From positions 1 to 64,000 of the forward strand of contig NZ_MWQI01000010.1 in assembly GCF_002210345.1 (NCBI RefSeq): a stretch of DNA of 64,000 bases, given 5' to 3'. Shown in pieces: positions 3,851 through 16,318 of the stretch. The position numbers and the translations under genes are program-made. The notes below the pieces were generated by a model. That model made no database searches and had not been told where the DNA came from. It was given only the letters and a program-made list of their open reading frames with translations. Position 1 is the stretch's first letter. The number at the start of each line of letters is the position of its first letter. Origin of the DNA: Fibrobacter sp. UWB4. Lineage in GTDB: Bacteria; Fibrobacterota; Fibrobacteria; Fibrobacterales; Fibrobacteraceae.

Positions 3851-3981
3851 GTCCAAGCAATATCGCTTGGGCATAAACAATCACCGGCTTGCAAGAGTCG
3901 CTTCGGTGGCGCGGTAATTTTAACTTCGCTTTGTGGCTTAATTGCAGTCCGGGTAGTAACAACCGAAAAGGAAAATATACT
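3851..3981 (+). promoter_or_regulatory. Probable rpsB leader region
   Basis: A CCAAGC/GCTTGG hairpin (about 3852-3869) opens a GC-richer 130-nt stretch before rpsB. Leaders of rpsB often carry an autoregulatory structure that binds S2. I cannot match this one to a described motif, so this is an inference from position and the visible hairpin. The RBS is an A-rich AAAAGGA about 10 nt before the ATG. Confidence 0.35.
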
Positions 3982-4722
3982 ATGGCTAATTTGCCTTCCG
4001 TCGAAGATCTGCTTGCAGCAGGCTCCCACTTTGGTCACCAGACTCAGCGCTGGAACCCGAAAATGAAACCGTACATCTTGGCAGAAAAGAACGGCATCTA
4101 CGTTCTCAACCTCTCCAAGACTCGTGACCTCCTCGAAGAAGCTGCTAAGGCTGCTGCCAAGATTTCTGAATCTGGCAAGACCGTGCTCTTCGTTGGCACG
4201 AAGCCGACTGCACGTCAGTGCGTGCTCGACGCTGCTGCTACCTGCAACCAGTTCTCCGTCACCAACCGTTGGTTGGGCGGTATGCTCACGAACTTCCAGA
4301 CTGTCCGCAAGTCCATCAAGAAGATTGACAAGATCGACACCATGGAACAGGACGGCACCTTCCAGGCTCTCTCCAAGAAGGAAGTCCTCGACAAGACTCG
4401 TGAACGCGCCAAGCTCCTCGACGTGTTCGGTGGTATCCGTGAAATGGTGAACCTCCCGGGCCTTCTCGTCGTGACCGACCTCGCTCACGAAAAGATCGCT
4501 GTTGCAGAAGCTCGCCGTCTCCACATTCCTATCATCGGCATCTGCGACACGAACGTCGATCCGACCCTCGTGGACTACCCGATTCCGGCAAACGACGACG
4601 CTGTGAAGTCCCTCAAGCTCATTGTGGACTACATCGCTGCTAACGTCAAGCCGCGCGTCGCTGCTGAAAAGAAGGAATCCAAGGAAGAAGTGAAGAAGTT
4701 CGACAACGGCGAGGACAAGTAA
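3982..4722 (+). CDS. rpsB: 30S ribosomal protein S2
   Basis: 246 residues starting MANLPSVEDL. The S2 landmarks are present: GSHFGHQTQRWNPKM near the N-terminus, NRWLGGMLTN in the middle and IPIIGICDTNVDP followed by DYPIPANDDA. The C-terminus is a charged Lys/Glu tail. The ATG at 3982 has an AAAAGGA RBS; upstream in-frame codons lie in the leader and are not part of S2. Codon use is strongly biased, as expected for high expression. EF-Ts follows 1 nt after the stop, the conserved rpsB-tsf pair. Confidence 0.97.
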   Translation: MANLPSVEDLLAAGSHFGHQTQRWNPKMKPYILAEKNGIYVLNLSKTRDLLEEAAKAAAKISESGKTVLFVGTKPTARQCVLDAAATCNQFSVTNRWLGGMLTNFQTVRKSIKKIDKIDTMEQDGTFQALSKKEVLDKTRERAKLLDVFGGIREMVNLPGLLVVTDLAHEKIAVAEARRLHIPIIGICDTNVDPTLVDYPIPANDDAVKSLKLIVDYIAANVKPRVAAEKKESKEEVKKFDNGEDK

Positions 4723-4723
4723 T

Positions 4724-5605
4724 ATGCAGATTACCGCTTCCCTCGTTAACGAACTCCGCCAGAAGACTGGCGTCGGCATGATGCAGTGCAAGAAGGCACT
4801 CACCGAAACTGACGGCGATATGGAAAAGGCTTTGGAACTCCTCCGCAAGCAGGGTGCTGCTGTTGCTGCAAAGCGCGCAGACAAGGCTGCTAAGGAAGGC
4901 CGCGTCTATCTTATCGAAACCGCAGAAAAGGCTGCTGCTTTCGAACTCACCTGCGAAACTGAACCGGTTTCCAACAACGACGACTTCGTTGCCCTCGCAG
5001 CCCTTGCTACCAAGGCTGTTGAAACTCAGGCAATCGCTTCCGTCGAAGATCTCAAGAACGCTGTCGTTGATGGCGTCAAGATCAATGACCGCCTCCAGGA
5101 CGTCCTCGTGAAGATTCAGGAAAACATTGACTTCCGCAAGTTCGCAGAAATCAAGAAGGTCCCGAACTCCGTGTTTGGCGTTTACAGCCACATGAAGGGC
5201 AAGATCGGTGTTATCACTGAACTCGCTTTCGAAGGCTCTGCTGACGAAGCTGCTCTCAAGCAGGCTGCTAAGGACATCGCTATGCAGGCCGCTGCATTCG
5301 CTCCGGTTGCATTGAACGATGCTGCAGTTCCGGCTGAAACGATCGAAAAGGAAAAGGAAATTGCCAAGGCTCAGATCGAAGCTTCTGGCAAGCAGACCAA
5401 GCCTGAATTCATGCAGCGCCAGATTGATGGCCGCGTGGCTAAGGTCCTTAAGGAAATCGTTCTCGAAGACCAGGAATTCTTCATGTCTGAAAAGAACCCG
5501 AAGAAGCTCTCTGTCAAGGACTACCTCCAGGAAGTCGTTGCAAAGCAGCTCGGCCTTACCAGCTTGAAGGTCGTGAACTTCATCCGCTTCGAACGCGGTA
5601 ACTAA
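4724..5605 (+). CDS. tsf: Elongation factor Ts
   Basis: 293 residues; nucleotide exchange factor for EF-Tu. The diagnostic N-terminal UBA-type segment with LRQKTGVGMMQCKKAL is intact, followed by the two-subdomain core. The FIRFERGN C-terminus is typical for the family. The start is 1 nt after the rpsB stop and its SD (GAGGA) lies in the end of rpsB, so translation is probably coupled. The stop codon is followed immediately by a heptamer array. In most bacteria pyrH comes next; here pyrH is about 15 kb away. Confidence 0.97.
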   Translation: MQITASLVNELRQKTGVGMMQCKKALTETDGDMEKALELLRKQGAAVAAKRADKAAKEGRVYLIETAEKAAAFELTCETEPVSNNDDFVALAALATKAVETQAIASVEDLKNAVVDGVKINDRLQDVLVKIQENIDFRKFAEIKKVPNSVFGVYSHMKGKIGVITELAFEGSADEAALKQAAKDIAMQAAAFAPVALNDAAVPAETIEKEKEIAKAQIEASGKQTKPEFMQRQIDGRVAKVLKEIVLEDQEFFMSEKNPKKLSVKDYLQEVVAKQLGLTSLKVVNFIRFERGN

Positions 5606-5640
5606 GTTAGACGAAAGACGAGAGTCTAGAGACGAGAGAA
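5606..5640. repeat. Heptamer array, family A (GACGAGA units), starting at the tsf stop
   Basis: Five consecutive 7-bp units of consensus GASRGAC begin directly behind the tsf TAA. With 5658-5699 they form an inverted arrangement that could fold as a long hairpin ending tsf transcription. Confidence 0.7.
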
Positions 5641-5657
5641 AAAGTAATGAGATTATT

Positions 5658-5699
5658 TTTCGTCTCTCGTCTGTAGGACCTTTGGTCCGTTCTCTCGTC
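5658..5699. repeat. Heptamer array, family A in inverse orientation with nested hairpin
   Basis: Six 7-bp units. Two TCTCGTC units lie exactly 28 bp apart with the phase kept through an intervening hairpin (GGACC-AAA-GGTCC on the minus strand, 5665-5699). A 35-bp element of the same layout lies at 46448-46482 with a different but still complementary stem (GTGCC/GGCAC). Confidence 0.7.
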
Positions 5700-5801
5700 T
5701 GAGAACCTATCTTTATGAAATTGGTCGTCCCATCCGGGGCGGCCAGTTTTTTTATAGTTTATTTTGTATCTTATTACGTACACGTAAGTGAGAAAGGGAA
5801 A

Positions 5802-6623
5802 ATGAGAATTTATCTTACATTGACGATTTGTGTTTCGTTGCTTTTACTTGGATGCGGTGGGGCCCAGGTGCAAAGAGGTTCTTTTGAAGCCTTGGTTCCC
5901 GATGCGTATACCGGTCCAACATTTGCTATGGACGATGATTCTAGTGCGTGGAAAGTCAATGTGTCGATTCGAAATCCCAATGATAAACATGTGCATTTGA
6001 AAGAAATCTGGAACGATACGATTAATGGCTTTGAGTACACCTTGGATCCAGTTGCTGGCGATGTCTACTATGATTTCAAGATATTCCCAGTGGCGGCCTC
6101 TATTGACTATTTTGGTAAAAAAACTTTTTTGCTGGGAGGCATCGGTTTTGGACTTGATCCTTTCCCGTATGTACGTGTGACTGCAGGCATAAATGAACGA
6201 TATTTTGAGTTGGGAGCTTTTGCATCACTAGGATTAGCTAAAGTCTCGTATTCAGTTTATGCCCCTTATATAGATGATCAAGGAAATATGGCTGGAGCGG
6301 GAACGAGTTCTAAAGGCGTTATTGAATGCGATGATTGTAGCGAATGGAAATACAATGGGAATTTTGGTTTTTATGTAAACGCATTCCCGTTTAGCGAATT
6401 TGCGCTTTCTTATTCTTTCTCGGCATTTTGCCCCTGGTTGTACAACGAATTGCAAGAATATCCGCTGACATTTGATTTTCCCTATATCTTTTCAAATTAC
6501 TTTGGTGGAACGTACATAATCAATAATCATTATCTCGTTTCTCTAGGGGCGAATATCCACTTTGGAAACGATTTTAAAGAAACCATCTGGAATTTGGAAT
6601 TGAAGACGGCCTTTATCTTTTAA
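5802..6623 (+). CDS. Hypothetical lipoprotein
   Basis: 273 residues starting MRIYLTLTIC; the ATG at 5802 has a GAAAGGG RBS. A lipobox LLGC places the lipidated Cys near residue 18, followed by GGAQ. The mature chain is rich in aromatic residues and Gly with alternating hydrophobic strands, suggesting a membrane-associated beta structure. A CDDC pair lies in the middle. No family recognised. Convergent with the DUF4230 gene on the other strand. Confidence 0.7.
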   Translation: MRIYLTLTICVSLLLLGCGGAQVQRGSFEALVPDAYTGPTFAMDDDSSAWKVNVSIRNPNDKHVHLKEIWNDTINGFEYTLDPVAGDVYYDFKIFPVAASIDYFGKKTFLLGGIGFGLDPFPYVRVTAGINERYFELGAFASLGLAKVSYSVYAPYIDDQGNMAGAGTSSKGVIECDDCSEWKYNGNFGFYVNAFPFSEFALSYSFSAFCPWLYNELQEYPLTFDFPYIFSNYFGGTYIINNHYLVSLGANIHFGNDFKETIWNLELKTAFIF

Positions 6624-6649
6624 ACGGAATGATCTGAACGGCGCCTGTC

Positions 6650-7261
6650 TTATTCGCGCTGTTCCAGATTGACCTTGTAGCCGCGTTCAATTGTTGTTCC
6701 GAGCCGCAACTGGATTAACTTCATCGCGTGGTCGCGGGCCCTGCGCTTGAGTTCCGCGCTGTTTTCCTGCTCATATTTCTTTTGTTCGGAAATAAAGAAC
6801 TGCTTGAAGTCTTCGAAGCGGATGTTGTTGAACCAGCCCTGCTTTTCCCAAAGAATCTGGATGCTCTCGAAATCGATGCTGTGACTCAGAATTTTAGGCT
6901 CTGGCAGATAAATGAAAATGCTCTGCGTGTTCGGCTCCACGAGAATCTTGATGTCCTTCAAGTCGTAACCCAGCTTGACATCGCCCTGATAAACAAGCGA
7001 AAATTCCTTGATGGACTTGTTGATTCTCCAGTCGGGAATGTATTCGAGAAGCTTTTTCGCGTCCTGAAAGTTCGCGTTTTTGCGGTAGTGATGGTGGAGG
7101 GTTGCAAGCTCCGAAATCTCGCTGATCTGCTGCTCCACAAACTCGCTCGTGATGCTCGTCTGTTTTGTGTCGGTGTACAGCTTTTTCATGACAAGCGCAG
7201 TCGTCACGCTTGTAGCGCAAATGATGAGCAAAATCGCAACTATTTTCAGGGCTGGTTTCAT
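6650..7261 (-). CDS. DUF4230 domain membrane-anchored protein
   Basis: 203 residues with one N-terminal membrane helix (about 6-26) and no cleavage site. The rest matches the DUF4230 layout: a short helical part, a strand-rich centre with VYQGDVKLGYDLKDIKI and EPKILSH, and a long C-terminal helix ending in a basic region with arginines (RRARDHAMKLIQLRLG). The function of DUF4230 is unknown; the topology suggests a soluble domain outside the cytoplasmic membrane. Single gene, convergent with 5802-6623. Confidence 0.75.
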   Translation of the reverse strand: MKPALKIVAILLIICATSVTTALVMKKLYTDTKQTSITSEFVEQQISEISELATLHHHYRKNANFQDAKKLLEYIPDWRINKSIKEFSLVYQGDVKLGYDLKDIKILVEPNTQSIFIYLPEPKILSHSIDFESIQILWEKQGWFNNIRFEDFKQFFISEQKKYEQENSAELKRRARDHAMKLIQLRLGTTIERGYKVNLEQRE

Positions 7262-7578
7262 GCTATAAATTTATGCAAAAAAGATGCAAAAGGTTAATTT
7301 CATTGAAATTTCTTGTTATTCATGAATTCTTCATTCTCTTTATATAACGGGGGAGGAATCCCCCTCGCTCCAGCCCCGACTTACAAGTGCAAAATGCGGC
7401 ATGTCATGCCCGCCACCGAGCGGGCATCGCCTCTATCTGTCAAAAACACATCGTCGGGTCTTACGCTACCCCCACTGCGGGCTTCAGACGCCAGCCCGCA
7501 ACGCCCGGCTTGCTCCGCTCACCTATCCTTTGGAGCCTTAAAAGAGATGCTGTTTCTGGCTACTCTAGAAAATGTTGC
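7262..7578. repeat. Repeat-rich intergenic region upstream of the Abi locus
   Basis: No gene seen. It carries a GGGGGAGGAATCCCCC palindrome (7348-7366, cf. about 3676-3691), the TGTCATGCCCGCC hairpin repeat (7402-7430) and a TTCAGACGCCAGCCCGCAACG element (about 7483-7506) that recurs at 54456-54482. Open frames in this stretch run through these repeats and lack RBS and coding character. Such repeat clusters are plausible landing sites for the adjacent island. Confidence 0.6.
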
Positions 7579-7607
7579 TTGTTTTTCTCTGAAAAAGATT
7601 GTATATT
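7579..7607 (+). promoter_or_regulatory. Predicted sigma-70 promoter of the Abi-associated RNA
   Basis: TTGTTT (7579-7584), a 17-nt spacer and TATATT (7602-7607). Predicted transcription start near 7614, about 50 nt upstream of the Abi start codon. Confidence 0.5.
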
Positions 7608-7613
7608 TATAAA

Positions 7614-7666
7614 TAACAGGACCCCCCGCACCTCTCATTGATGTGTCCCAGGGGGGACATTTTTTT
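7614..7666 (+). ncRNA. Candidate ~53-nt structured RNA ending in a terminator, abutting the Abi_2 gene
   Basis: The predicted transcript holds a CCCCCC run (7622-7627) and a terminal hairpin (7644-7649 with 7654-7659, loop AGGG) followed by seven T residues (7660-7666). The run GGGGGG (7651-7656) could pair with CCCCCC, excluding the terminator or forming a pseudoknot. The Abi ATG begins at the base after the T run, so the GGGGGG segment would also have to serve as RBS. I recall a conserved RNA motif named abiF upstream of Abi_2-type genes; whether this belongs to it needs a covariance search. Confidence 0.5.
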
Positions 7667-8536
7667 ATGGAAATCAAAAAGGCGACAACGTATAGGGAGC
7701 AGGCAGAAAAGATCGAACAACGTGGCTGTTGTATCGAAAATGTTGACGATGCCATCCGCTGCCTTGAAACCATAAATTATTATAGGTTGTCTGCATATTT
7801 TCTGCCGTTTAGAAAACAAGATGGTTCCTATAATGCAGGGACGAGTTTTTCAAGAATTGTGCAGATATATGAATTCGACCGATTGTTGAGACGGTCACTT
7901 TTCTCGGCTCTTGAAGAAATAGAAATTTCTATGAGGGCGAGACTAGCGTATTTCCATGCGCATAAATATGGTCCGACGGGTTATTTGATTGAATCGAATT
8001 TTTCTCTGTCGCATAAACACCAAAGATTCTTGGAAACGTTCAATAGAGAAGTTGAACATAGTTCTAATGTTCTTTTTGTGAAGCATCATCAGGATTGCTA
8101 TGATGGTGTGTTCCCTATATGGGTGGCAGTGGAGTTGTTCTCGTTTGGCATGTTGTCCTATTTTTATGCAGACCTTGTTCTTGCAGATCAAAAGCTCTTT
8201 GCATGTCAGTATTATAAGACCATTCCGAAGAATCTAAAAAGCTGGCTAAGGTGTACGACTGACTTGCGTAATATCTGTGCCCATTACGGACGACTCTACT
8301 ATAGGATTTTCTCCGCTATTCCTGCTAATATTGAGGAAGTAGAAGAAAAAGATAATCGTTCTCTTTGGGCGGCGTTCCTTGCGGTGCGGAATTTGTATCC
8401 AAACCCCAAAAAGTGGAACGAAGAATTTCTTCCGTCAATTAAAGAATTGTTTGAAAAGTATTCGTCTGCAATTCAGTTGGAACATATTTCGTTCCCTGAG
8501 GATTGGGCTGAGAAAGCGGTTGCCAAGGAAGAATAG
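7667..8536 (+). CDS. Abi_2 family abortive-infection protein (HEPN-like RNase candidate)
   Basis: 289 residues of the AbiD/AbiF (Abi_2) family. The N-terminal half has the typical opening (Y.EQ..KIEQRGC, then INYYRLSAYFLPF), followed by the acidic-helical block FDRLLRRSLFSALEEIEISMRA. Near the C-terminus RNICAH (Arg201-His206) is an RX4H motif as in HEPN ribonucleases, within RNICAHYGRLY. I chose ATG 7667; a GTG at 7643 in frame would put the start inside the terminator hairpin. The family acts against phage, probably by cleaving RNA when released from control; that is family knowledge, not shown here. Confidence 0.85.
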   Translation: MEIKKATTYREQAEKIEQRGCCIENVDDAIRCLETINYYRLSAYFLPFRKQDGSYNAGTSFSRIVQIYEFDRLLRRSLFSALEEIEISMRARLAYFHAHKYGPTGYLIESNFSLSHKHQRFLETFNREVEHSSNVLFVKHHQDCYDGVFPIWVAVELFSFGMLSYFYADLVLADQKLFACQYYKTIPKNLKSWLRCTTDLRNICAHYGRLYYRIFSAIPANIEEVEEKDNRSLWAAFLAVRNLYPNPKKWNEEFLPSIKELFEKYSSAIQLEHISFPEDWAEKAVAKEE

Positions 8537-8774
8537 TGGTGGTTAATTCCCACAAAAAAGACCAATTCCCCAAAAGTGGAAGTGTCAATTATACTTTTAA
8601 AATTTATATACCTATATATGATTTCCCCATTTAGGCGAAATTGTTTTTGAACTAGTTAAATATGTTTATCGCTTTTTTCTGCTTAGTGAAGGTCGACTCT
8701 ATGCCGTGTATTTCATTGGAATACCTAGCCGTTGATGGAGCTACTCTTTCAGTTCTTCTATTATATTTGACGAT
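8537..8774. other. AT-rich intergenic region before the TDP1-like/helicase operon
   Basis: 238 nt without a gene. Several AT-rich candidate -10 sites occur (for example around 8611-8622). One TATATT lies at 8762-8767, exactly where a -10 would give a transcript starting at the ATG of 8775, which also lacks an SD; the message could be leaderless. No strong -35 accompanies it. Confidence 0.4.
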
Positions 8775-10001
8775 ATGAATGATTTATTCTTAATTCCATC
8801 GCCAGAAAGTTTTGAAAATAGCAGATTGACTGTTGATTTCGGCTTAAGAACAGCACTTTTGAAGCACAGAACTGCCGTCGTCCCCTGCATTGGTACTGTT
8901 CAATTTCTGAGGCAGATGACATGGTCTCTGGCAGCCATATATCTTTGTACTGAAAGCTTTGACGAAAGAACGCGTCGAATACAACGAATTTCGGCAACAG
9001 TTGTTGCGAATGCTATTGAGGCGTTAGCATGTAAAGCAATGTATAATTATGCATCGCGCGATTCATTTGACTTTTATGGTAGCAGGGCTTTTGGAAGAGA
9101 ATGCTCGGATGGGATTTTTGAGCGACGAGATGTTTGGACGTTTGGTTGGCTTGGTCAAACCAAGAATTATGTACAGAATACATATAGGCAAAGTGCCTCT
9201 GCTGCAATATATGCATTAGGATTGACGGAAGGTTCATCTAGATTTAACTCAATGAAATTGACCCCTGAGGGGCGAAATATTGCCATAGAATTTCTGCAAC
9301 AGAAGGTTGGCGATAAGACTTTGAAATCTTTCCTGTCTTCTTGGATATGTAACCCGAAATGGGTTCCGTCTGCTAATTCATCTGCATGGAAAGAATTTCT
9401 TGGCTCAGTAAATCCGACTCTGCAGACGGTCTCCGAACGGATGCTGTATGCAGCTGTTTTTGAAAAACAAGTTCGTTATAATGGTAAGCAAATATTGATG
9501 CCTCGAATGAAAAAATGCGGTTCAGAAAAGGATTTGTTGGCGAATTTAAAACAATCAAAAGAAGAACGTTACCATACTGAAATTCTGGCTGCGAAGGCAT
9601 TTGATGAATTCCATAATGCGGTCAAGAAGCTTTTTTCAGGATGTGTTAAGCTAATGGATTCTAACATATATAACTTGAAGGATATTGAAGGTAGACTAAA
9701 ACTCGAAATTAAGGATGTGAAAGAGAGGGGCGAGTCTTATCTAAAGTTCAAGGAATTTGCTTATGGAAAAGTTGAGGTTGGGGAAATAATAAAATCTAAG
9801 TTTAGGAAAATGCTTGATTTGATTATCTCAAATAACAAGTCTATTCTTATCAAAACCGATATGGTAATGAAGGGGCCTCTGTATGCTGCAGCAAAGGATT
9901 GGTCTTTTGAATTAGATCGACAGAAGAATAATGATAAAAAATGGCCCTTATCAAGATTGCGTCAATGGCGAAATTTGTGTATTGATTGTGGAATTTGCTG
10001 A
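8775..10001 (+). CDS. Unknown protein, first gene of the putative defence operon
   Basis: 408 residues, predicted mostly alpha-helical and without signal peptide or membrane helix. I do not recognise a domain. Visible features: a basic central region, a long charged helix at about 265-340 (KEERYHTEILAAKAFDEF and onward) and a C-terminus ending WRNLCIDCGIC with three Cys in eight residues. Low-GC codon use differs from the flanking housekeeping genes. The stop overlaps the next start (TGATG), which ties it to the PLD and helicase genes. By analogy with multi-gene helicase/nuclease defence loci it may be a recognition or adaptor subunit; that is inference. Confidence 0.7.
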   Translation: MNDLFLIPSPESFENSRLTVDFGLRTALLKHRTAVVPCIGTVQFLRQMTWSLAAIYLCTESFDERTRRIQRISATVVANAIEALACKAMYNYASRDSFDFYGSRAFGRECSDGIFERRDVWTFGWLGQTKNYVQNTYRQSASAAIYALGLTEGSSRFNSMKLTPEGRNIAIEFLQQKVGDKTLKSFLSSWICNPKWVPSANSSAWKEFLGSVNPTLQTVSERMLYAAVFEKQVRYNGKQILMPRMKKCGSEKDLLANLKQSKEERYHTEILAAKAFDEFHNAVKKLFSGCVKLMDSNIYNLKDIEGRLKLEIKDVKERGESYLKFKEFAYGKVEVGEIIKSKFRKMLDLIISNNKSILIKTDMVMKGPLYAAAKDWSFELDRQKNNDKKWPLSRLRQWRNLCIDCGIC

Positions 10002-11917
10002 TGAAGACTCTTTCTCAATTGTTTACGCCTCCTGATGGCTATGTAGGGCAGATTTGTGTCGCAAGTGCCTTGAGTGCAGATGTGCGTTTTTTGGATAGTA
10101 TGTTGACTGAATTTACCCGCATGTCAAATTCCAAACGTCGCGGATGTGGTAATGTGAGTTTACTGCTAATGTTAGATGCAAAAGCTGATCGTCTTGATAT
10201 GGATGCTGCCTCTGGCTTCATTCAATTGCAACCCAATGGCAAAAGTAAATGGGATAAGATTGCTTGTATGCATGCCAAGGTCGCTTTGATGCAATTTGGC
10301 AAGTCAAATACAGTTCAGTCTCGTAATAAGACTGTAGATTTGATATGGCGTCTTATTATCTGTACCGGTAACTGGACTGAGGCTTGTGCGATTCGTCAAA
10401 TGGAAATGGCTTGGTCAACGGATTATGATTGCGATGGTAAGCCAAAGGATTACAAATCTTTGTCAGATATGGTCTGTGCAGTAAGATTTCTAAGAAAGCT
10501 CCATCAAAACTATGCTGTGGATGAGCGAATGTGGGTTCCTGCTGAAATTATGTTCAATGGTATAGAAAATTGTGCTGCTGAGGTTACTTCATTACCAACG
10601 CCAAGAATGTTTACCACTTTTAGCGATAAAACAATGCTAGATTCTATCGCAGCTCGTTTTCGCGGTGTTAAACCCAATTATGTAATAGCAGGTTCGGGTT
10701 TCTATGAGCAGGATGATGGCAAGAAGGGTAAACCTATAACGATTGAAAAAATTGAGCAAAAACTCAAACTTGCAGAAATCGGCAAGGCAGACAGGCATTT
10801 GGTTGTTAATCCAGATACAGCAGGCAAAATTGCTACATGGTCGGGAAGCATTTTGCGTGATTGGAGTCTTCATTTACCATTGGATCTTATGGCAGAAAGA
10901 TTTATGCATGCCAAGTATATCTACGCAGGCGTTAAGAAACGAACTTCAGTTGGTGAAGGAAGGCTGTATCTAGGTTCAGGAAATCTGTCTGCAATGGGGT
11001 TACTTGGGTATGCTAGTGGCAAGGCAAAGAATATTGAGGCGGGAGTTGTGATAACTCAGTCTGACTTTAGCGGTGAGGAACGGTCTTCTCAAGAAAAAAT
11101 GTTTAAAACATTGCTTTGTGGGATGGAAAAATCATCCTATGAACTTAAGCCATTAAATGAATCTTTTGATGAACCTGGTTTTAGAGAGGATGATGCTTGT
11201 TATAAAGACCCTTGCCCTTTGTTGGCTTTTGAACTTATTTTTCAGGATGATAAATACATGCTTCGTCCTGTTTGGCTTGAAGATATCCCTGTGAAGGGTG
11301 TTATACATAAAAGAACTGGAGCGGAACTTGGGAAAAAGGATGTTTCTATTATGGACATCCCTTCTGGATATGATTCTGTTCAGTGGAAAGGTGAAAACTA
11401 TCAAGTTCCTGTAATTGTGATGAATGATAAATTTGCAAGGCTATCCGCACCTGCAGAGACTGTGCTCACGCTAGAAGAAATGCTGTCTCAATTAGAATCA
11501 GCCATGAATGGTAGGGATGCAGAAGATGATGATGGAGATGATGATCAGGAAGATCCTAATGGAGAAAAAAGAAGGAATGATTATGCAAACAGATTGATGA
11601 AAGAAAAATCTTACAAATACCAATCCGCTATGACCTTGGTAGAGACCATTGCTGAATATAGTCAAGAACGCTTTGAAAAGTACGAAAATGTGTGTGTGGA
11701 AGATATTATGGATTGGATCTCGATGATAGATTCAAAATTGCGAAATCTGTCAAAGGAACTTGTTGCAGAATGGCAATCACTTGAGGTTGATTTCATTTCA
11801 GTTTTGGCTAGGGATAATTTTGCGCCACCATGCAAGGGCAAGGCTAGGACTCTGTGGAACAGCTATGTTAAAAAATGGTGTAGAAAGTGGCGCCTTGATA
11901 AGTATGAGATGCTGTAG
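10001..11917 (+). CDS. TDP1-like phospholipase D superfamily protein with two HKN motifs
   Basis: 638 residues from the ATG at 10001, which overlaps the previous stop as TGATG; an in-frame TTG 15 nt upstream is less likely. Two PLD half-sites are visible: MHAKVALM with CTGNWTE (His91, Lys93, Asn124) and MHAKYIYA with LGSGNLS (His303, Lys305, Asn328). Asn instead of Asp after each HxK, and the TGN/SGN context, resemble tyrosyl-DNA phosphodiesterase 1 rather than bacterial HKD enzymes. The C-terminal third has an acidic Asp-rich stretch near residue 505 and a helical end. Likely a phosphodiesterase acting on nucleic-acid ends, working with the downstream helicase. Confidence 0.78.
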   Translation: MKTLSQLFTPPDGYVGQICVASALSADVRFLDSMLTEFTRMSNSKRRGCGNVSLLLMLDAKADRLDMDAASGFIQLQPNGKSKWDKIACMHAKVALMQFGKSNTVQSRNKTVDLIWRLIICTGNWTEACAIRQMEMAWSTDYDCDGKPKDYKSLSDMVCAVRFLRKLHQNYAVDERMWVPAEIMFNGIENCAAEVTSLPTPRMFTTFSDKTMLDSIAARFRGVKPNYVIAGSGFYEQDDGKKGKPITIEKIEQKLKLAEIGKADRHLVVNPDTAGKIATWSGSILRDWSLHLPLDLMAERFMHAKYIYAGVKKRTSVGEGRLYLGSGNLSAMGLLGYASGKAKNIEAGVVITQSDFSGEERSSQEKMFKTLLCGMEKSSYELKPLNESFDEPGFREDDACYKDPCPLLAFELIFQDDKYMLRPVWLEDIPVKGVIHKRTGAELGKKDVSIMDIPSGYDSVQWKGENYQVPVIVMNDKFARLSAPAETVLTLEEMLSQLESAMNGRDAEDDDGDDDQEDPNGEKRRNDYANRLMKEKSYKYQSAMTLVETIAEYSQERFEKYENVCVEDIMDWISMIDSKLRNLSKELVAEWQSLEVDFISVLARDNFAPPCKGKARTLWNSYVKKWCRKWRLDKYEML

Positions 11918-11918
11918 T

Positions 11919-14441
11919 ATGGATTGGAAACAAGTAAGGAAAAATCTATTCGATGTCATTCATGAAATGACTATGAGTGATAACGGCAAGCCTGTATATG
12001 GTCAGGATGCTGCCGCTATGGCTGTCATGAATCGTTTATCTCAAAATGGGGTTATTCTTGCAGATGATGTTGGTCTCGGAAAAACCCGAGTCGCTTTAAT
12101 GCTTATGGAGAGCGTTTCTCGTGCGGGTGGAACAGTTGCAGTAATTTCACCTTCGAATTTGATACACCAATGGATTGATGAAGCTAGATCATTTTTGGAA
12201 ACACTGAAGAATAGTTCATTGGATGCACAACCGTTCTCTCTACAGAGTGTTGCTAAGCTGAATAAGGATCTTACGTATCCATTATGTTATAATAATGGCC
12301 AATTAAACCGTTGGCTCATCGTGTCTCAGCAATTCGGTTTAGTAGGTAATAAGAGTCTTAAGATTGGCGGAGACAGAAATAATAGAGATGCTCAGAAGCA
12401 GAAATCTTTCTTTAGGTCTACAATCAAGGGGATGATTAAACAGGGATGTGTTGCAAACGATGAATATACCAATGAGGCGGCTTGGTTAATTGGAACTTTG
12501 ATTGGTAAGGTTGATTTACTTGTTGTTGACGAAGCACATAAGAGCCGTCACTTGGAAGATGCTGAAGAAGAATGCAAGAATATGCCGAGACTACACTTCT
12601 TGTTGTCTAAAATAATACAACGCAAGAATGATTCAAGATGTCTTTGCATGACTGCGACCCCTGTGGAAATGGGTGTTGATCAGTGGCAGGCATTATTAGA
12701 ACGTTGTGGAGGCATCAAGAATAACAAGACTGCAATACTTGAGCATGTTAAGATGTTTTCTGAGAAATTGGACAAGGCGAATGCTGCTCCAGAGAACACA
12801 AAAACTGTAAAAAATCTAATTGAAGCGGCGAAAATCTTACATGGAGACCTTAAAAATTATGTGGTCCGTCGTCGTCGAACAAATCAGAACGAGTATAAGA
12901 ACTTAATTTCACAACTCCCAGATAAGGGAGGTTGTCACCCTCATAGGGAACTTAATCCAGTTAATGTCAAGACTGATGACTTAAGTGGTGATTGGAAGTC
13001 TATTGTCTTATGTATGGAAGGAATTTCCTGTGCAGCAAAGAAGAGTGACGCAAGCTACCGCGATAAACTTCTTCGTTGTCATTATGCCGCGGGTATGTTA
13101 AACATGAAACAAGGTGATGCACTACGCGACTTGAACAATGCTATAAATAGGGAACGTAAGCAGGATGCTGCTAAAGCAGGTAGATTGGACTATTGGAAGG
13201 CTAAACTAGCCCAATATGAGGAAAACGATCTATTTCTACTTGAACATCCGCGAATTCAGACTACTGCAGACCATATTGAAGCTGTTTGTCGTAAGGGTGA
13301 AAAAGTTCTTGTTTTTGGAACGTTTATAGAACCCATGGAGGCTTTGCGAAATGAATTGAATTACAGGCATATTTTGCAACGTATGGAGGATGGCTTGCCA
13401 GTTGCTTTGACTAGGGTTTCCATGGACGCTCTGTGGCATGTCTATGAACGCTTGAAGGTAAAGAACAATTGGAAACGATGGGGTAATAAGAAATCCTTTC
13501 GAGAACGATTTAAAGAAGAACGCGATAGATTTAGCGATGCTACGACTTGGCTAAAGGATTATGTGTTTGGAAATTCTGCTTGGCTAAATATGCTATCCGA
13601 ACATCCCATGTATTCTTTAACCCGATATTTTGTATTCTTAGAAGCGTTGAAAGGTCTTTCTGAAGAAAAGATTAGGCCAATTGCTGAAAAATTACGTTGG
13701 GATCTATTGGAATCTATCTACCAATCTAACTCCAAGTTTTCCTTTAGTGGTAAGCCTTCGAAGAGGGAACGAAATGATTTGATAATGTTGTTAGCAGATG
13801 TAATTGACGTATATCTCAATTGTGGAAAAGATGATGGACTACCAGTTTGTCTGAAAAAGTTTTCGTTGACTGATTTTGTTAAAACCATGATGTATGACGA
13901 TGCTATTGGACGTCATGATTCTTTCTGCGCAATGATGTCGGGAAAAGATGATATGAATACCCGTAGACCGTTGCTTACTAAACGTTTCAATATGAAAAAT
14001 ACATTCCCACAGGTCCTTATTGCTCAGTCTCGTGTGGGGCGTGAAGGTTTGAATCTTCATAAGGCCTGTAGTCATGTGGTTATCTTCAATACAGAATGGA
14101 ATCCTGCGGTTGTTGAACAAGAAATTGGTCGAGTTGACAGAATCAGTTCGCTGTGGAATGAACAGATGGTTATGTGGAATTCTGAGGATCCTAAAGATCG
14201 CTGTGATCCACCTAAGATTAAGGTCGATTTTGTTGTATTTGATGAAACTTATGATCTATATCAGTATGAAGTTTTTGCTCACCGTCGACGAGAAATATCT
14301 AGTCAGTTGTTTGGAACCTTACTAGATGAGGAAACTCTGAAAAGGGTTCCTAAAGAATTTCGTGATCACAATGAAAATGAGCTTGTGTCTGCTTTTGATT
14401 TTGACCCTGTAAGAGAATTTGAGGGTATGCTAAAAAGATGA
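11919..14441 (+). CDS. SNF2-type (SF2) helicase/translocase
   Basis: 840 residues from ATG 11919, one base after the previous stop. Helicase motifs in order: Walker A GLGKT (52-56), motif Ia around SPSNLIHQW, DEAH (204-207), motif III TAT (245-247), and in the second RecA domain VGREGLNLH and QEIGRVDR (about 734-741, motif VI). The closest general type is the SNF2/HepA-like DEAH family. A long insertion (about 330-640) separates the two halves. It would translocate on DNA or RNA using ATP. Together with the TDP1-like gene it forms the core of the cassette. A strong terminator follows. Confidence 0.85.
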   Translation: MDWKQVRKNLFDVIHEMTMSDNGKPVYGQDAAAMAVMNRLSQNGVILADDVGLGKTRVALMLMESVSRAGGTVAVISPSNLIHQWIDEARSFLETLKNSSLDAQPFSLQSVAKLNKDLTYPLCYNNGQLNRWLIVSQQFGLVGNKSLKIGGDRNNRDAQKQKSFFRSTIKGMIKQGCVANDEYTNEAAWLIGTLIGKVDLLVVDEAHKSRHLEDAEEECKNMPRLHFLLSKIIQRKNDSRCLCMTATPVEMGVDQWQALLERCGGIKNNKTAILEHVKMFSEKLDKANAAPENTKTVKNLIEAAKILHGDLKNYVVRRRRTNQNEYKNLISQLPDKGGCHPHRELNPVNVKTDDLSGDWKSIVLCMEGISCAAKKSDASYRDKLLRCHYAAGMLNMKQGDALRDLNNAINRERKQDAAKAGRLDYWKAKLAQYEENDLFLLEHPRIQTTADHIEAVCRKGEKVLVFGTFIEPMEALRNELNYRHILQRMEDGLPVALTRVSMDALWHVYERLKVKNNWKRWGNKKSFRERFKEERDRFSDATTWLKDYVFGNSAWLNMLSEHPMYSLTRYFVFLEALKGLSEEKIRPIAEKLRWDLLESIYQSNSKFSFSGKPSKRERNDLIMLLADVIDVYLNCGKDDGLPVCLKKFSLTDFVKTMMYDDAIGRHDSFCAMMSGKDDMNTRRPLLTKRFNMKNTFPQVLIAQSRVGREGLNLHKACSHVVIFNTEWNPAVVEQEIGRVDRISSLWNEQMVMWNSEDPKDRCDPPKIKVDFVVFDETYDLYQYEVFAHRRREISSQLFGTLLDEETLKRVPKEFRDHNENELVSAFDFDPVREFEGMLKR

Positions 14442-14533
14442 TGAGGCGTGTAAAGGTCTTTGAAATGTTCTAATAACGAGAACGAGTTGCCGATGTTTGG
14501 GAAAGTTTTTAGAGCATGTCCTGCAATAAGAAA

Positions 14534-14561
14534 AACCTCGGTTCATCACCGAGGTTCTTTT
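14534..14561. terminator. Terminator at the end of the defence operon
   Basis: An 8-bp perfect stem (14534-14541 with 14549-14556), then CTTTT. A-runs upstream make it usable in both directions, also for the convergent acyl-CoA dehydrogenase operon. A TGTCATCCCC hairpin repeat in reverse orientation follows at 14568-14595. Confidence 0.75.
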
Positions 14562-14605
14562 GTAAAGGGAGATCCCCGCCTTCGCGGGGATGACACCTGC
14601 GAGGC

Positions 14606-16318
14606 TTATGCCTGCTTGTAGCTTTCGAGCGATTCCACGCGGAGGCTCTTCACAAAGTTGTAGTGCTTTGCGACTTCAGCTTCGGCGAGGTTCAAGTACA
14701 CCTTCATGCTCTTGTCGAACAGTTCTGGTGCCTTGGTGGCGTCGCGGAGGAGCAACTGGGTCATCACGCAGTTGGCGGCGAGTTCGTACAAGTGACGGCT
14801 GCAGAGGTCGGTGAATTCGTTGTTTTCAACGGACTTCACGTATTCGATAGCTTCGTTGTACTTTTCGTCCATAGCCTTGGCGCGGGCCTTGAGGCTTTCG
14901 TATTCCGGGCGAACGTCCATAGCTTCGAGTTCTTCGAGCATGAGGCCGTAGCTGCCGGTAGTGATGTGTGGAAGTGCTGCAACCGTCTGGAGCTGCGTTG
15001 TACCTTCGTAAATGGAGGTGATACGAGCATCGCGGTAGAGGCGCTGGCAAGCGTATTCAAGCATGTAGCCCGAACCGCCGTGAACCTGGATACAGTCGTA
15101 GCTGTTCTGGTTTGCGTATTCGGAGTTCATGCCCTTTGCAAGCGGTGTGCAAGCGGAAGCGAGCTTCTGGTAAAGCTTGAGTTCCTTCTTTTCGTCGTCG
15201 GTGAGCTTGCGGGTGCGTTCGATGTCTTCGAGGCACTTGTAGATATCGACGTAACGAGCTGTCTGGTACAAGAGGGCGCGGCCTGCATCGAGGCGAGCCT
15301 TGATGTTCGAGATCATTTCGTAGACGGCCGGGAAGTTCACGATAGCCTGACCGAACTGCTTACGGTCCTTGGCGTAGGCGAGAGCTTCGTTGTAAGCCAT
15401 CTGGCTGATACCCACAGACTGAGCGGCAATGCCGAGGCGTGCGCCGTTCATGAGGGCCATCACATACTTGATGAGACCGAACTTGCGGCGACCGCAGAGT
15501 TCAGCCTTGGCGTTCTTGTAGACAAGTTCGCAAGTCGGGCTTCCGTGAATACCGAGCTTGTTTTCGATGCGGCGAACGTCAACGCCACCGTCACGCTTGT
15601 CGTAAATGAACATGGAAAGACCACGACCATCGTGCGTGCCTTCTTCGGAGCGGGCGAGCACCAGGTGAATGTCGGAGTCGCCGTTCGTGATGAAGCGCTT
15701 CACGCCGTTCAAGTACCAGCACTTGTCAGCTTCGCTGTAGGTGGCCTTGAGCATTACGCGCTGCAAGTCAGAACCTGCATCCGGTTCGGTCAAATCCATG
15801 GACATCGTTTCGCCGGCGCAGATGCGCGGGATGAAACGGGAACGCTGGTCTTCGTCGCCGAATTCATAGAGCGTTTCAATGCAGTCCTGGAGGGACCAGA
15901 TGTTCTCGAAACCGGCGTCTGCAGAGGCGATCATTTCGTTGATGGCCGTGTAGGCGGTAATCGGGAAGTTGAGACCGCCAAAGCGGCGCGGCATCGTAAC
16001 ACCGTTGAGGCCAGCCTTGCGGGTGGCTTCGAGGTTTTCGTAGGTCTTGGATGCGTAGCGGACGCGGCCGTTTTCGCAGTGCGGGCCTTCGGCATCCACG
16101 TCTTCGGAGTTCGGGAAGACCGTGTTTGCGGTGATGTCGCCAGCGACTTCGAGCACGCGGTTGTAGTTGTCCATAGCGTCGGCAAAATCTTCCGGCGCAT
16201 AGTCGAAATTGTCCTTGTCAGCAAAGCCGTTTTCCTTGAGCTCGACAATGCGCTGCATCAAGGGGCTGCTTTCGAGGTTGAATTTAATCTCGGGGTGATC
16301 TGTGTAGAAATTTGCCAT
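14606..16318 (-). CDS. Acyl-CoA dehydrogenase, large form
   Basis: 570 residues; FAD-dependent alpha,beta-desaturation of an acyl-CoA thioester with electrons passed to ETF. The core fold is visible from about 60 to 450: MDLTEPDAGSD (substrate/FAD region), NGVKRFITNGD, and IYEGTTQLQ, where the Glu is at the usual catalytic-base position. The chain is about 190 residues longer than the classic family, with a C-terminal helical extension, as in bacterial FadE5/AcdA-like forms. It is the last gene of an operon with etfA 5 nt and etfB further upstream, so these are its electron acceptors. The acyl-chain preference cannot be read from sequence. Confidence 0.92.
   Translation of the reverse strand: MANFYTDHPEIKFNLESSPLMQRIVELKENGFADKDNFDYAPEDFADAMDNYNRVLEVAGDITANTVFPNSEDVDAEGPHCENGRVRYASKTYENLEATRKAGLNGVTMPRRFGGLNFPITAYTAINEMIASADAGFENIWSLQDCIETLYEFGDEDQRSRFIPRICAGETMSMDLTEPDAGSDLQRVMLKATYSEADKCWYLNGVKRFITNGDSDIHLVLARSEEGTHDGRGLSMFIYDKRDGGVDVRRIENKLGIHGSPTCELVYKNAKAELCGRRKFGLIKYVMALMNGARLGIAAQSVGISQMAYNEALAYAKDRKQFGQAIVNFPAVYEMISNIKARLDAGRALLYQTARYVDIYKCLEDIERTRKLTDDEKKELKLYQKLASACTPLAKGMNSEYANQNSYDCIQVHGGSGYMLEYACQRLYRDARITSIYEGTTQLQTVAALPHITTGSYGLMLEELEAMDVRPEYESLKARAKAMDEKYNEAIEYVKSVENNEFTDLCSRHLYELAANCVMTQLLLRDATKAPELFDKSMKVYLNLAEAEVAKHYNFVKSLRVESLESYKQA

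Follow-up and report, generated by a model that had tools for sequence, protein, structure and literature searches.

The window analysed here is a 64,000-nucleotide stretch of Fibrobacter sp. UWB4 (contig NZ_MWQI01000010.1, positions 1 to 64,000), and the subject of this work is a run of three genes within it, which encode a helical protein (G1), a phospholipase D (PLD) superfamily protein (G2) and a SNF2-type motor protein (G3), and which are referred to collectively as the trio. An initial annotation of the window had presented the trio as a candidate undescribed defence system. The features of the locus are as follows.

8775-10001, forward strand: gene for G1, ATG start, 408 amino acids (aa)
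10001-11917, forward strand: gene for G2, ATG start, 638 aa
11919-14441, forward strand: gene for G3, ATG start, 840 aa
About residues 135-195 of G1 (middle segment): winged-helix-like element, from a reading of the sequence
14534-14556, forward strand: intrinsic terminator-like hairpin, ∼90 bp past G3
7643-8536, forward strand: AbiD/Abi_2 gene, neighbour of the trio and outside the module

The layout described in the initial annotation was borne out at each point. The open reading frames are adjacent and joined as expected for translational coupling, with the stop codon of G1 overlapping the start codon of G2 (TGATG) and a single base between the stop of G2 and the start of G3 (TAG-T-ATG). 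The trio is AT-rich, at ∼38-42% G+C versus ∼47-57% in most of the flanking kilobases on both sides and 43-45% immediately upstream, and the terminator that was said to close it corresponds to a 9-pair hairpin with a T tract, the strongest terminator-like site. The adjoining gene annotated as Abi_2 encodes a clear member of the AbiD/Abi_2 family (PADLOC E 1.5e-98; Pfam Abi_2 1.3e-49).

Predicted properties of the three proteins

G2 is a two-domain protein of the PLD superfamily with two HxK...N sets, H91/K93/N124 and H303/K305/N328, both invariant across aligned homologues, the second being followed by N344 and E346. Pfam does not recognise G2 as a PLD protein. A structural model built from seven sequences, of middling quality (predicted local distance difference test, pLDDT, 58), was used for Foldseek searches, in which the first 18 matches were all to TDP1 (E ∼3e-8 to 3e-7), followed by PLD3 and PLD4. 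The earlier description of a TDP1-like protein with two HKN sites therefore holds for both the predicted fold and the motifs, and G2 is proposed to be a putative nuclease with a TDP1-like fold. It departs from TDP1 in being only about 10-14% identical, in having an extra C-terminal helical region and in its location within a bacterial operon alongside a motor gene. Since the HKN motif is also used by some PLD-type restriction enzymes, its presence leaves the substrate of G2 unfixed.

G3 is a SNF2/RapA-like helicase-fold ATPase (Pfam SNF2-rel_dom 5.9e-10; Helicase_C 2e-8) in which the Walker A and DEAH motifs are intact and the GREGLNLH and GRVDR motifs are conserved within the family. It is proposed to be a putative double-stranded DNA motor.

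G1 had been described as unrecognised, and Pfam, PADLOC and NCBIfam indeed gave no match to it, nor was any PDB sequence significantly similar. The AlphaFold 2 model consists almost wholly of helices but is of low confidence (pLDDT 60), and Foldseek searches with it returned no match at E < 0.4. In a second structural comparison, residues ∼42-218 were matched by a group of winged-helix proteins (DtxR/IdeR, MukF and MarR), and the segment ALGLTEGSSRFNSMKLTPEG resembles a winged-helix recognition helix with its wing. Since the Z score of ∼5 lies within background, the winged-helix assignment is treated as a lead only, and G1 is proposed to be a putative DNA-binding or target-recognition subunit of its own family.

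Conservation and distribution of the trio

Plasmids, genomes and viral contigs were searched for trio loci, with local hidden Markov model (HMM) searches as a second step. G1, G2 and G3 lie in one order, and nearly always overlap, at 16 loci from four or more phyla: this window, Desulfosarcina, Pantoea, Fuscovulum, Paracoccus, Haematobacter, Leisingera, Variovorax, Asaia, Acetobacter, Rubellimicrobium, Sinisalibacter, Novosphingobium, metagenome-assembled genomes (MAGs) of a Hyphomicrobiaceae and a Planctomycetota bacterium, and one contig from a viral collection. Several of these nearly duplicate one another, which reduces the set to about eleven separate lineages. Recurrence of all three genes in the same order at 16 loci is more than would be expected by chance, and the trio is a real, conserved and co-inherited module. 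A plasmid search with G1 alone recovered seven records, every one a trio locus, so that the association of the first gene with the other two, on which the initial annotation depended, is seen elsewhere also. The sole partnerless G1 (L121, 5998-7397), in a genome from the group of the Planctomycetota MAG, comprises approximately the first half of the protein and is cut at a transposase-like gene.

The module is rare and horizontally spread. The G1 profile matched one of 151 Fibrobacterota genomes, namely the present one, and none of the 150 others; in three other groups it matched 1 of 337, 2 of 246 and 1 of 321 genomes, the genome at the centre of each search being included in these counts. 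One trio contig was present in the viral_contigs collection, and the phages collection gave no trio match.

Several loci depart from the usual gene structure. In Paracoccus versutus (L005, 6756-9770) G1 and G2 form one open frame of 1004 aa, which may be a natural fusion or may reflect a sequencing error or frameshift, while in Novosphingobium (L124, 13658-15900) the PLD gene is split by ∼2.2 kb resembling an insertion element. All three genes in Asaia platycodi (L009, 6575-12543), and the PLD and SNF2 genes in Rubellimicrobium (L011, 6446-12676), are spread over several frames, indicating either decay or poor sequence.

Genomic context

Five relatives from the same genus (L131-L135) retain the acyl-CoA dehydrogenase gene that borders the trio, although the neighbouring DNA differs and the trio is absent. 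The closest of these, with flanks ∼97% identical, has neither AbiD nor the trio. Given its absence from the closest relative and the differing content of the site, the module is a recent gain, or a recent loss, at a site of variable content. This site, beside the acyl-CoA dehydrogenase and Etf genes, spans 5606-14606 of the window; the cargo of the relatives includes proteins of 1953 and 2025 aa, and tsf is also close by in three of the five. Elsewhere in the same genome (contig G000:C7; L122, 2661-10983) lies a locus that, judged by eye, resembles type I restriction-modification (R-M) genes and encloses a PLD gene, a DUF262-like gene and a receiver/histidine-kinase-like pair.

A four-gene system that takes in the upstream AbiD gene was considered, given that AbiD and the trio are on the same strand, 239 bp apart, and that the AbiD region is also of lowish G+C content. 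However, in relative L135 the corresponding site holds AbiD (3857-4816; 86% identical DNA) but not the trio, and the genes upstream of the trio are different at its other loci. AbiD was rejected as part of the module on these grounds, and a four-gene system is regarded as highly improbable.

Several trio loci adjoin defence genes. The Haematobacter trio is preceded by BrxL and followed by a UG/DRT-type reverse transcriptase, the Novosphingobium trio has PglZ and BrxL upstream, and the Variovorax trio has type I R-M genes downstream, while many alphaproteobacterial loci adjoin PD-(D/E)XK (AddB-like) and UvrD genes. The initial annotation had named enrichment near known defence genes as a check; neighbours belonging to BREX, type I R-M and reverse transcriptase systems do occur, and are suggestive of defence rather than a measure of enrichment. 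A further pair, encoding an AAA+ ATPase and a WYL protein, lies beside the trio in Pantoea, Desulfosarcina, Fuscovulum and the viral-collection contig.

Comparison with known systems

DISARM and Mokosh combine, respectively, a PLD nuclease with a SNF2-type helicase (DrmC and DrmD) and a helicase with a PLD domain, and the initial annotation had set the trio apart from both. Unlike DISARM, the trio has no DrmA, DrmB or methylase, and the PADLOC DrmC model covers only 153 positions, as against 638 aa in the two-domain G2; none of the three genes is DrmB, and the weak matches to DrmA and DrmD lie in helicase motifs. For Mokosh, no MkoA or MkoB model is among the PADLOC matches listed for the proteins of the window, which for G3 are the best 25 of 47. 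The exclusion of these systems stands, and DISARM, Mokosh, Dpd and Zorya were all rejected as having only helicase motifs in common with the trio.

What had been overlooked is that two named systems, the anti-phage system Azaca and the PADLOC phage-defence candidate PDC-M27 (M27ABC), have the same three-gene plan. Azaca, to which the Zac names are presumed to refer, is represented in PADLOC (version 2.0.0) by models PDLC03828-03830, for ZacA (DUF6361), ZacB (PLD-like) and ZacC (SNF2 helicase). The Azaca loci that were retrieved encode a DUF6361 protein, a PLD protein and a SNF2 helicase in that order, mostly overlapping, as in the trio, and PDC-M27 loci follow the same plan and order with a 460-aa uncharacterised protein in first place. 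A PLD-like domain in Azaca is noted in PMC10952713, citing Millman et al. 2022. No description of the G1-G2-G3 trio was found in the open-access papers searched, in which DUF6361, PDC-M27 and ZacABC are likewise not named, nor was a mechanism found there for the trio, Azaca or PDC-M27. As a system the trio is unmatched in PADLOC 2.0.0, Pfam, NCBIfam and these open papers, newer or closed sources lying outside the scope of the comparison.

The PLD protein is linked to both systems. ZacB is the sole significant PADLOC match of G2, over short stretches, with E values from 3.7e-5 in the window to 4e-9 in Leisingera. The PADLOC M27B model gave no match to G2; in profile comparisons, G2 scored 95% with ZacB (E 2.7e-8) and 86% with M27B, while ZacB and M27B scored 93% with each other. 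G2 is thus a distant homologue of ZacB and M27B, and it has in common with ZacB an N-terminal L-x-PP-x-GY stretch that lies outside the catalytic motifs and is present in most members.

The motor proteins are less informative. Profile comparison scored G3 at 99.7% with M27C and 97.6% with ZacC, and M27C is the top PADLOC match of G3, albeit at 68 bits versus ∼1500 for a true member; the ZacC model matched at 1.9e-15, which is no better than other SNF2 families. In a tree of G3, ZacC and M27C proteins with 26 generic SNF2 proteins, the first three form clean groups (supports of 100, 100 and 99) and the generic proteins a fourth. HMM scores agree with this, in that the G3 profile rates M27C no higher than some generic SNF2 proteins, and generic SNF2 proteins lie at least as close to ZacC as G3 does. 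Since the order of branching among the groups is not settled by the tree and the HMM scores match it, the helicase alone provides no argument for common descent. G3 also differs in length from ZacC (∼840 versus ∼1050-1100 aa).

Accessory genes provide a further connection. The AAA+ protein beside the Pantoea trio is 43% identical (684 aa), and the WYL protein 60% identical (321 aa), to the pair beside the Rhodoferax M27ABC genes, indicating that the same cassette is attached to both trio and M27 cores. This shared cassette is the strongest of the links to the known systems. PD-(D/E)XK and UvrD genes also lie immediately upstream at some Azaca loci, but the UvrD genes are only ∼26-31% alike and the PD-(D/E)XK genes have no BLAST match to one another, and this link to Azaca is the weaker one.

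The searches also revealed other members of the two systems. A PDC-M27 locus in Siccibacter (L050, 222-10447) lies in a gene run that, by eye, includes a protein with an MrfA Zn-binding domain and a UvrD helicase whose N-terminus is RelE-like; the run resembles parts of ARMADA (PMC12458937), and PDC-M27 and ARMADA may be linked. A highly divergent M27-like trio (M27A 4e-16; M27B 3e-14) is present on a Parcubacteria contig (L017, 2759-9692), and Azaca occurs with unchanged gene order on a haloarchaeal plasmid (Halomarina; L106, 7013-13307).

Interpretation

Taken together, these data are best accounted for by an anti-phage module that is rare and has spread horizontally, with the trio as its core and as a third, unnamed core type of the class that includes Azaca and M27; this is considered probable, if by no means assured. 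The conserved order of the genes, the intact active-site residues, the TDP1-like fold of the G2 model, the homology of G2 to ZacB and M27B, the shared cassette and the horizontal spread are observed. An anti-phage function would accord with the genomic context, and the three proteins may form a complex in which G1 has a part. There are, nonetheless, several points that weigh against this reading. G1 gave no PADLOC or Pfam match to ZacA (DUF6361), nor did three G1 homologues in PADLOC, and the G1-ZacA profile comparison scored 0.15%, with nothing significant; M27A was likewise not matched in PADLOC, and scored 0.11-0.13% by profile comparison. The helicase tree places G3 with neither ZacC nor M27C, and does not separate G3, M27C and generic SNF2 proteins in their order of branching. 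The defence neighbours, read off without a control set, are suggestive of a defence role, and DNA as the target is surmised only from the predicted fold. Since the first gene fails the tests for ZacA and M27A, the trio is outside Azaca and PDC-M27 by present models, but it probably acts in a similar way. The initial proposal of a separate, undescribed system thus survives in part: G1 is a family of its own and G3 a clade of its own, whereas the homology of G2 to ZacB and M27B, the gene plan common to both systems and the AAA+/WYL cassette in common with M27 tie the trio to systems already named.

A likely mode of action can be outlined. G3 would serve as an ATP-driven SNF2 translocase on invading double-stranded DNA, G1 as a helical subunit that binds DNA or acts as an adaptor, directing or licensing the complex, and G2 as the nuclease, the two HKN half-sites of its TDP1-like fold cutting the DNA. 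The whole would be a restriction-like motor-nuclease. Since the module has no methylase, self DNA is probably spared through the form of the DNA, be it ends or replication or packaging intermediates, or alternatively through licensing by further genes, for example the AAA+/WYL or AddB/UvrD-like neighbours seen elsewhere.

The closest competing explanation is that the trio is a deeply diverged Azaca subtype, with G1, G2 and G3 the orthologues of ZacA, ZacB and ZacC and the first gene having drifted past recognition. The gene order, the comparable lengths of genes one and two and the G2-ZacB homology would all be expected, and the N-terminus of G1 can be aligned gap-free with the invariant ZacA motif (DFGLRTALLKHRTAVVPCIGTVQF versus ELGIGIVRDGFANILFPGTSTIQT), this being the best-scoring segment. 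However, that score was equalled by 8 of 150 column shuffles, the PADLOC ZacA model is silent on G1, and G3 comes no closer to ZacC, which is ∼200 aa longer, than do generic SNF2 proteins. Similar short motifs can be picked out by eye, in the same order, in G1, ZacA and M27A, but the statistics give homology no support; when profiles were compared over the full length and in windows, against shuffled controls, no significant match of G1 to either protein emerged. A diverged subtype accordingly seems rather unlikely, although it is the foremost of the alternatives. Somewhat less likely still is that the trio represents a defence system in its own right, G1 being a new fold or family and G2 a TDP1-like nuclease acting on protein-linked or terminal phage DNA, in which case the likeness to Azaca and M27 would reflect convergent assembly of PLD and SNF2 proteins with exchangeable AAA+/WYL and AddB/UvrD-like licensing cassettes.

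With respect to function, the main rivals are a role in repair and abortive action. A DNA-repair operon, in which a TDP1-like phosphodiesterase and a SNF2 remodeller clear protein-DNA adducts for genome maintenance, could be envisaged since TDP1 is the nearest solved fold, both half-sites are HKN, and SNF2 proteins are generally known to remove proteins from DNA. The patchy rarity of the module, both in its own phylum and in the three other groups searched, does not fit such a role, nor do its carriage on plasmids, its variable site and its defence neighbours, and a repair function is judged to be quite improbable. An abortive-infection effector, in which the triggered nuclease destroys the nucleic acid of host and phage alike and so causes cell death instead of restricting the invader alone, is less readily dismissed but still unlikely. 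Nuclease-motor pairs can act in this way, Hachiman being described in PMC12278908 as a helicase-gated nuclease complex, and an Abi gene lies upstream in the window. AbiD is independent of the trio, however, and related multi-gene helicase systems such as ARMADA are, according to PMC12458937, direct and non-abortive in mechanism.

If the trio is indeed a further core type of this class, the comparison suggests that Azaca is one of at least three that share a common plan of an uncharacterised A protein, a PLD nuclease and a SNF2 motor, and that the accessory cassettes of these core types are in part exchangeable. The existence of three core types would bear on the role of the variable A protein, and on how a methylase-free motor-nuclease spares its host.

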